Shown in pieces: positions 9,825-10,157 of a stretch of 33,369 nucleotides of DNA; position 1 is the stretch's first letter, and every line of letters begins with the position of its first letter. The stretch spans positions 1-33,369 of the forward strand of contig JALHON010000019.1 in assembly GCA_022842985.1 (NCBI GenBank), read 5' to 3'. Both the position numbers and the translations under genes were made by a program. The notes under the pieces were generated by a model, which was not told where the DNA came from, did not search any database, and saw only the letters and a program-made list of their open reading frames with translations. The stretch comes from Acidobacteriota bacterium. GTDB taxonomy: Bacteria > Acidobacteriota > Vicinamibacteria > Vicinamibacterales > UBA2999.

Positions 9825-9899
9825 GCGGGAATAACTCAGTGGTAGAGTGCGACCTTGCCAAGGTCGAAGTCGCGGGTTCGAATCCCGTTTCCCGCTCCA
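9825..9899 (+). tRNA. tRNA-Gly (GCC)
   Basis: A complete cloverleaf can be folded. The acceptor stem GCGGGAA pairs with TTCCCGC (9889-9895). The anticodon loop is TTGCCAA with GCC at 9857-9859. The T arm is CGGGTTCGAATCCCG. The CCA end (9897-9899) is encoded. It is followed at once by a hairpin repeat. Confidence 0.97.
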
Positions 9900-9929
9900 A
9901 CTTTCGCTCCATGGTGCTCAGCGAAGGTT
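9899..9929 (+). terminator. Hairpin directly after tRNA-Gly
   Basis: AACTTTCGCT (9899-9908) pairs with AGCGAAGGTT (9920-9929), one pair being G-U, around an 11-nt loop. The base of the stem shares the final A of the tRNA CCA. A short TTGTCT follows. It may be a terminator or a processing signal. Confidence 0.5.
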
Positions 9930-9965
9930 GTCTCGCCGAAGCCCGCAGCGCGGGCGAAGGCGGAC
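9899..9965 (+). repeat. tRNA-trailer repeat, copy 1
   Basis: This 67-bp unit begins at the last base of tRNA-Gly and has two parts. The first is a 10-bp hairpin with an 11-nt loop. The second is TTGTCTCGCCGAAGCC...GGCGAAGGCGGAC, which folds as CGCC/GGCG, an internal loop GAAG/CGAA, and CCCGC/GCGGG. Copy 2 follows tRNA-Cys with the same architecture. Confidence 0.75.
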
Positions 9966-10021
9966 GGCACGGTCTTGTGAGACACTAGCCCCCGACCGCA
10001 CGATCCCCACCAGCTCCAAGC

Positions 10022-10095
10022 GGCGCCGTAGCCAAGTGGTAAGGCAGAGGTCTGCAAAACCTCCATCCCCGGTTCAAATCCGGGCGGCGCCTCCA
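10022..10095 (+). tRNA. tRNA-Cys (GCA)
   Basis: The acceptor stem GGCGCCG pairs with CGGCGCC (10085-10091), with U73 as expected for tRNA-Cys. The anticodon GCA is at 10054-10056 in the loop CTGCAAA. The T arm is CCCGGTTCAAATCCGGG, and CCA (10093-10095) is encoded. A weak TTGTGA (9975-9980) and CACGAT (9999-10004) could be its own promoter, or it is co-transcribed with tRNA-Gly. Confidence 0.96.
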
Positions 10096-10123
10096 ACTTC
10101 CGCGAGTTATCCCGGCGGAAGTT
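10095..10123 (+). terminator. Hairpin directly after tRNA-Cys
   Basis: AACTTCCGC (10095-10103) pairs perfectly with GCGGAAGTT (10115-10123) around an 11-nt loop. As after tRNA-Gly, the stem begins at the CCA end and is followed by GTCT. The loop sequence is unrelated to that of the first copy. Confidence 0.55.
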
Positions 10124-10157
10124 GTCTCGCCGAAGCCGCGTAGAGGCGAAGGCGGAC
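10095..10157 (+). repeat. tRNA-trailer repeat, copy 2
   Basis: This 63-bp unit has the same parts as copy 1: a 9-bp hairpin with 11-nt loop, then TTGTCTCGCCGAAGCC and GGCGAAGGCGGAC around a different, shorter centre. CGCC/GGCG and the GAAG/CGAA internal loop are kept exactly. Confidence 0.75.

Follow-up and report, generated by a model that had tools for sequence, protein, structure and literature searches.

The window, by which we mean the whole stretch of 33,369 nucleotides that was analysed, carries the genes for tRNA-Gly(gcc) and tRNA-Cys(gca) in tandem on the same strand, with one copy of a two-hairpin unit lying between the two genes and another after the second. Copy 1 spans positions 9900-9965 (66 nt) and copy 2 positions 10096-10157 (62 nt), and both begin at the base that follows the CCA; counted with the last A of the CCA, they measure 67 and 63 nt, respectively. 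These coordinates, together with the gene ends given by ARAGORN, bear out the first-pass annotation, which had described the same unit of 63-67 bp at the CCA end of both genes. The features of the locus are as follows.

9825..9899, + strand: tRNA-Gly(gcc) gene (ARAGORN; Rfam RF00005, 71.1 bits); copy 1 is bounded on the left by its CCA (9897-9899)
9900..9928, + strand: hairpin A of copy 1, ACTTTCGCT / AGCGAAGGT, 9 bp with an 11-nt loop (fold, covariation)
9930..9965, + strand: hairpin B of copy 1, GTC-T-CGCC GAA GCCCGC AGC GCGGGC GAA GGCGGAC (fold; covariance model R1, 49.8 bits)
10022..10095, + strand: tRNA-Cys(gca) gene (ARAGORN, Rfam); copy 2 is bounded on the left by its CCA (10093-10095)
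10096..10122, + strand: hairpin A of copy 2, ACTTCCGC / GCGGAAGT, 8 bp with an 11-nt loop (fold, covariation)
10124..10157, + strand: hairpin B of copy 2, GTC-T-CGCC GAA GCC ... GGC GAA GGCGGAC (fold; covariance model R1, 52.3 bits)

RNA and DNA folding agree in placing hairpin A first and hairpin B after it in both copies, and the RNA fold energies correspond to z values of -2.9 and -2.8 relative to dinucleotide shuffles. The stem of hairpin A, previously read as 9-10 bp around an 11-nt loop, folds into 9 pairs in copy 1 and 8 in copy 2, or 10 and 9 if a possible closing A-T pair is included (A9899-T9929 as the tenth, A10095-T10123 as the ninth). Hairpin B consists of an outer stem, GTC(T)CGCC/GGCGGAC, and an inner stem, separated by a GAA/GAA internal loop; it corresponds to the conserved second part with a changing tip that had been noticed in the sequence, and it folds in both copies. 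The hairpin-B pattern CGCCGAAGC..GCGAAGGCG has two matches in the window, and none of 100 shuffles had a match. The tRNA-end unit matches no known structured RNA family in Rfam 15: in the search of window positions 9700-10500 (by E-value) and of six loci (by gathering score), only tRNA was found at the gathering score.

The presence of strong hairpins downstream of genes would agree with intrinsic terminators of tRNA operons, the "terminator family" of the first-pass annotation. However, neither unit is followed by a T-run, the terminator scan scores nothing in 9900-10160, and copy 1, placed between adjacent same-strand tRNA genes, would cut off tRNA-Cys. We consider this reading hardly credible and rejected it on the lack of a T-run after the hairpin and the empty scan at the units.

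The window also contains three copies, 85-89% alike, of a repeat of about 190 bp with internal inverted arms (10196-10390, 11978-12189 and 26214-26421). One of them is inverted with respect to the others, and two lie just downstream of tRNA-Cys and tRNA-Leu.

Architecture and covariation of the repeat family

Of 40 genomes (that of the window and 39 relatives), 20 contain the core pattern CGCCGAAGC..GCGAAGGCGGAC and none its reversed control. Model R1, built on hairpin B, has matches in 36 of the 40, with at least 109 in one genome; the counts per genome are lower bounds, as 150 candidates per genome were scored, and they include some matches in coding sequence. The genome of the window holds three exact copies of a stricter pattern and 24 R1 matches at E up to 0.1.

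The inner stem of hairpin B varies freely with its pairing kept: in a set of sequences partly selected by their exact flanks, 90.7% of the cells are paired and 24 cells are changed on both sides, and 0 of 500 shuffles scored as high. That the stems covary, a claim first made from the two window copies, is upheld on 14 tRNA-end units, picked for compactness and including both window copies, in which 95.2% of the cells are paired and 10 of the 21 pairs (34 cells) are changed on both sides, a level reached by none of 500 shuffles.

Many loci show a longer form, whose full order is CCA, then GCCTTCGCT..AGCTWCGGCT.GGCAAGCC..AGCGAAGGCTGYC.CGCCGWAGC..GCGAAGGCGGRC. It comprises a left palindrome (GCCTTCGCT...AGCTWCGGC), a right palindrome (GCCGAAGC...GCGAAGGC) and a joining arm, AGCGAAGGCTGYC, that is complementary to the first bases of the element. 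The two palindromes lie in inverted order (left arms GCCTTCGC..GCWWCGGY, right arms GCCGAAGC..GCGAAGGC), which is the arrangement that defines a REPIN. Among 126 tRNAs that have the start and 200 nt or more of downstream sequence, most of them fetched by the start pattern itself, 92 carry the 3' arm of the left palindrome, 73 the GYGAAGGC arm, 51 hairpin B and 34 all three, compared with 20, 16, 13 and 5, respectively, of 215 control tRNAs without the start. From these counts, the left palindrome corresponds to the right one in inverted form, as in REPINs, and the complete form may be described as REPIN-like, that is, an inverted pair of palindromes joined by an arm complementary to the first bases. 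The window copies are compact: they lack the 3' (third) arm of the left palindrome, and their first bases pair directly with the complementary arm. When an autonomous large version was searched for among the 157 tRNA-end elements in our loci, three were found without the near arm and with the distal right-end motif.

Position at tRNA ends and distribution among genomes

The commonest unit start, GCCTTCGCT, stands directly after the CCA (offset 0) in 16 of 146 tRNAs, compared with a mean of 0.021 and a maximum of 1 at offsets 1-140. With up to one mismatch the figures are 22 against 0.057, and with up to two mismatches 28 against 0.514, the other 118 tRNAs having no such start. The set came from the genome of the window and three relatives, and 146 of its 156 tRNAs were used (nine did not end in CCA and one had less than 150 nt downstream). 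In the genome of the window, 4 of the 28 tRNAs found by ARAGORN carry the unit at the CCA when judged by eye (Gly, Cys and two Met), and tRNA-Ser(tga) is a fifth case with hairpin A only. The most strict tRNA-end matches of any genome, 12, after many different isoacceptors, were found in relative G039.

Since many loci had been fetched through tRNAs, loci fetched via hairpin B were examined for a sampling effect. Eleven of 13 complete units in these loci (read by eye in L001-L003, L035-L064 and L089-L141, out of 50 rows) follow a tRNA 3' end, one of them displaced, and the remaining two come after ..CCCAGCCA and ..TGGTCCACCA, sequences similar to tRNA ends in which no tRNA was detected. Elsewhere, hairpin B is common without a full left part: of the 24 R1 matches in the genome of the window, 19 lie away from tRNA ends, and of the matches away from tRNAs some lie beside genes and some apparently inside coding frames. 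Absence of the unit from other tRNAs together with its presence at random sites, which the first-pass annotation had named as the outcome contrary to its proposal, was not what we found, yet related single hairpins do occur away from tRNAs.

In the phylum as a whole, a strict pattern of T-arm, 11 bases, CCA and GCCTTCGCT was found in 29 of 396 genomes (70 places, summed from the table of the scan), whereas a composition-shuffled 9-mer matched 0 of 396 and the reversed pattern none. The matching genomes comprise 25 of the 42 of the same order as the window and 4 of the 354 others, all four in one family. The window copies begin with the start variants ACTTTCGCT and ACTTCCGCG and are not counted by this pattern. 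A scan of named genomes returned at least 120 stretches with CCA followed directly by GCCTTCGCT, a nine-base start whose chance control covers the 396 phylum genomes only. Bradyrhizobium is the largest group among the matches listed, which also include other Rhizobiales (Rhizobium/Mesorhizobium), Maricaulis, Opitutaceae and other Verrucomicrobia, Lentisphaerae, Kiritimatiellae, Acidobacteria (Vicinamibacterales among them), Gemmatimonadetes, Beta- and Gammaproteobacteria, Patescibacteria and candidate divisions. Many of these cross-phylum stretches have the downstream arms as well, often with the same hairpins. Plasmids searched with one Bradyrhizobium copy gave no match, and viral contigs gave five stretches with the pattern, mostly without a full unit by eye.

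Other palindromes share the position. A second family, TTCGACTCG.., also starts exactly at the CCA (4 of the 146 tRNAs with an exact match, none at other offsets), and a further one, TCCGCCTACGC.., does so in 2 of the 146; such families were seen in G005, G017, G039 and the genome of the window (G000). Two elements of G039 (L439 and L278, G039:C5 at about 272 kb) are preceded by fragments resembling the anticodon arm of tRNA-Arg(tct), where ARAGORN finds no tRNA, and one of the two has another palindrome in the T-arm region.

Occupancy at orthologous tRNAs and alternative readings

Among orthologous tRNA-Gly genes, of which 30 loci were listed, two without downstream sequence, 9 of the 28 readable relatives have the unit at +1 when read by eye (six clear, one half and two decayed) and 19 do not. 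At tRNA-Cys it is present in 3 of 24, the congeners G001, G003 and G004 being without it. The tRNA-Gly copy and its flank are common to G000, G003 and G004, all of the genus of the window, and the copy of G001 is decayed. Because this copy is common within the genus, vertical inheritance occurs too. As far as sequence comparison goes, the mix of shared, decayed and absent copies would fit insertion now and then, with copies being lost slowly afterwards. An empty and a filled site with flanks that align were not found in any two genomes, the filled and empty tRNA-Gly flanks not aligning with each other, so that the element boundaries are provisional; no constant target duplication was seen among the sites compared.

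The same data bear on whether the unit is a functional tRNA trailer, whose hairpins would be kept for pre-tRNA 3'-end processing, stability or a released small RNA, likeness among copies then reflecting function. The covariation of the stems, found also among shared-site tRNA-Gly copies of several genera, and the start of the unit at the exact mature 3' end both speak for such a role. However, most tRNAs of the same genomes lack the unit (118 of 146), as do the orthologous tRNA-Gly genes of 19 of 28 readable relatives, one congener has a decayed copy, and an identical nine-base start is found after unrelated tRNAs of distant phyla. The mix of shared, decayed and absent copies speaks against the trailer being essential, and we regard this function as an unlikely explanation of the family. 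What stands of the "structured tRNA trailer" proposed in the first-pass annotation is that the units sit where a pre-tRNA trailer would be; a trailer is thus possible as a by-product, and any such RNA role would be secondary.

The explanation that we favour, and judge to be likely from the comparison of genomes, is that the units are mobile palindromic repeats of about 60-110 nt with a preferred insertion site directly 3' of the CCA of tRNA genes. A mobile repeat targeting tRNA ends, also proposed earlier from the window alone, is well supported by the exact +1 position, the patchy occupancy and the occurrence of the same element after unrelated tRNAs in many phyla.

One unit in the genome of the window lies apart from its gene: 13.26 kb downstream of tRNA-Gln(ctg) stands a copy, 43 bp long, of the 3' part of this gene, and the unit comes after that copy. 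A tyrosine-integrase gene (PF00589, E 5.5e-26) adjoins the intact tRNA-Gln(ctg). Evidently, a genomic island landed in tRNA-Gln(ctg) and pushed the old end and its unit away. The displacement of a tRNA end together with its unit by this 13-kb island, and the sharing of tRNA-Gly copies within the genus, would suit a unit that spreads only with duplicated or transferred tRNA genes and their trailers, with no insertion at ends. We find such passive spread very improbable, given that the unit follows many isoacceptors in a single genome (the 12 strict matches of G039) and unrelated tRNAs in different phyla. As to the island itself (L438, G000:C3:5500-19400), the 43-bp copy starts from the anticodon loop, and the interior contains a truncated ORF matching the integron integrase TIGR02249 (E 1e-56), below the cut-off; this is possibly a tRNA island that carries a broken chromosomal integron.

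Islands integrated in tRNA genes are kilobases long, carry an integrase gene and have a duplicated 3' part of the tRNA at the far end. The units share their target, the tRNA 3' end, at which one such island is present here (tRNA-Gln), but as a rule they have neither an integrase gene nor a duplicated tRNA 3' part. The units might nevertheless be mini integrative elements: a tyrosine integrase would recombine circles of about 100 nt into the 3' ends of tRNA genes, whose 3' part would then be directly repeated. For this we can cite, besides the use of tRNA-Gln by an integrase island, 6 of 181 tRNAs whose own 3' tail (11-21 nt, exact) recurs within 400 nt downstream, against about 0.6 expected from the tails of other tRNAs. 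In four (Asn and Asp of the genome of the window, Arg tct and acg of G005), 19-21 of 21 nt match at 75-84 nt downstream, covering C56-A76 in standard tRNA numbering, and tandem Arg copies in L164 and L320 have an 11-13-nt tail copy. The excess rests on the exact-tail count; the table that tolerates mismatches is weak, with 2.9 control matches of at least 19 per draw, because the control draws match real neighbouring tRNAs. On the other side, none of the four 21-nt cases has an insert that begins with GCCTTCGCT, there is no general excess of tail duplication among tRNAs carrying the family, most of which are without a duplicated tail, and one of the six tail-duplicated tRNAs adjoins a masked stretch and a second tRNA. 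For the window copies, no duplicated tRNA tail was seen above background. Taken together, we hold integration of this kind to be improbable as the origin of the units.

Resemblance to REP sequences and the search for a possible mobilising enzyme

What is directly observed of the family is its position and architecture, the covariation of its stems, its patchy occupancy and its spread over phyla. Its movement would be by transposition, probably via hairpins on single-stranded DNA that an enzyme supplied in trans would join just 3' of CA/CCA. As the tRNA sequence stays intact up to the CCA, insertion should be nearly neutral for the host. The family has in common with REP and REPIN sequences (RAYT, TnpA-REP) that it consists of short palindromes with internal mismatches, in inverted pairs and in many intergenic copies. 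TnpA-REP acts on single-stranded DNA hairpins, and in the portions of PMC8266576 compared, one member is described as cleaving at CA in addition to CT; a junction immediately behind CCA would agree with REP-type hairpin cleavage at CA. The GTAG tag of REPs stands 5' of the inner stem in 19 of 76 scored tRNA-end units, GAAG in 48 and ATAG in 9. The family differs from REP/REPIN sequences in its fixed site 3' of the tRNA CCA, in that the tag is mostly GAAG, and in that no adjacent RAYT sharing the palindromes was found. In the parts of the REP literature consulted, tRNA ends are not mentioned as sites.

We searched for the gene that could supply such an enzyme. Y1_Tnp is present in 28 of the 40 genomes, and the copy number of R1 matches correlates with that of Y1 genes (Spearman 0.65, p 5e-6, uncorrected for kinship or genome size), with a median of 35.5 R1 matches in the 28 genomes with Y1 and 4 in the 12 without. 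Despite this correlation, two findings speak against RAYT as the driver. Adjacency fails: in the 24 Y1_Tnp loci fetched, the relaxed core of the repeat had no match and R1 had four weak ones, of which a single one exceeds 26 bits; it lies some 0.5 kb away from the gene match and is not adjacent. Moreover, G039 is rich in the repeat (64 R1 matches) with no Y1 match. No mobilising enzyme was found, the Y1/RAYT genes examined not being flanked by the repeat, and in view of the failed adjacency and of G039, a Y1/HUH transposase is left as a first guess, which we offer with considerable doubt. It is conceivable, though we put it forward tentatively, that many bacterial phyla possess a dedicated transposition system which places palindromic repeats exactly behind the tRNA CCA, recognising the tRNA 3' end as folded single-stranded DNA or as tRNA, and that several unrelated palindrome families share this site.

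Other known palindromes were compared. The CGTC-tagged REPs of alphaproteobacteria are, in the sections of PMC3733652 considered, cross-phylum palindromes with no known transposase and with short tails mostly fitting CCA, traits shared with the tRNA-end repeat; they differ in that their stems of 8-9 bp begin with two A/T pairs and in their CGTC end, and no tRNA association is reported in those sections. Membership in this group was rejected: the linker TGTC/TGCC occurs, but hairpin B starts CGCC..GGCG. Br-REP1 and Br-REP2 are likewise palindromic intergenic repeats in Bradyrhizobium, also a host of the tRNA-end repeat, but their consensus sequences are others and they lie in 3'-UTRs, the word tRNA being absent from the main text (PMC5082802). 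The comparison extended to parts of PMC4666352, PMC12306157 and PMC8049555, and PMC2817692 gave no term match.

In the open-access literature, no description of such a family was found, sequence strings included. Its constituents are of known kinds, namely REP-like palindromes and tRNA ends as landing sites; the combination, the exact position and the breadth are new. tRNA genes are the classic targets of large integrating elements, and a repeat of about 60-110 nt landing at the mature 3' end across phyla would, if our reading is true, be a different and much smaller tRNA parasite with an unusual target-site specificity. It would also define the trailers of many tRNAs and complicate assembly and annotation at tRNA loci. 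The family makes it directly testable how REP-like sequences choose and reach new sites.

Two further observations concern other elements in these loci. In L067, L073 and L081, Y1_Tnp genes lie amid palindromes of their own (e.g. GGCGGGTCC..GGACCCGCC), which appear to be RAYT-REP pairs unrelated to the tRNA-end repeat. In L011 (tRNA-Asn of the genome of the window), L004 (its tRNA-Asp), and L203 and L207 (both of G005), inserts of 75-84 nt stand after the CCA, and behind each of them the last 21 nt of the tRNA recur; in the inserts of L011, L004 and L203, an inverted copy of the tRNA tail also seems to be present by eye.
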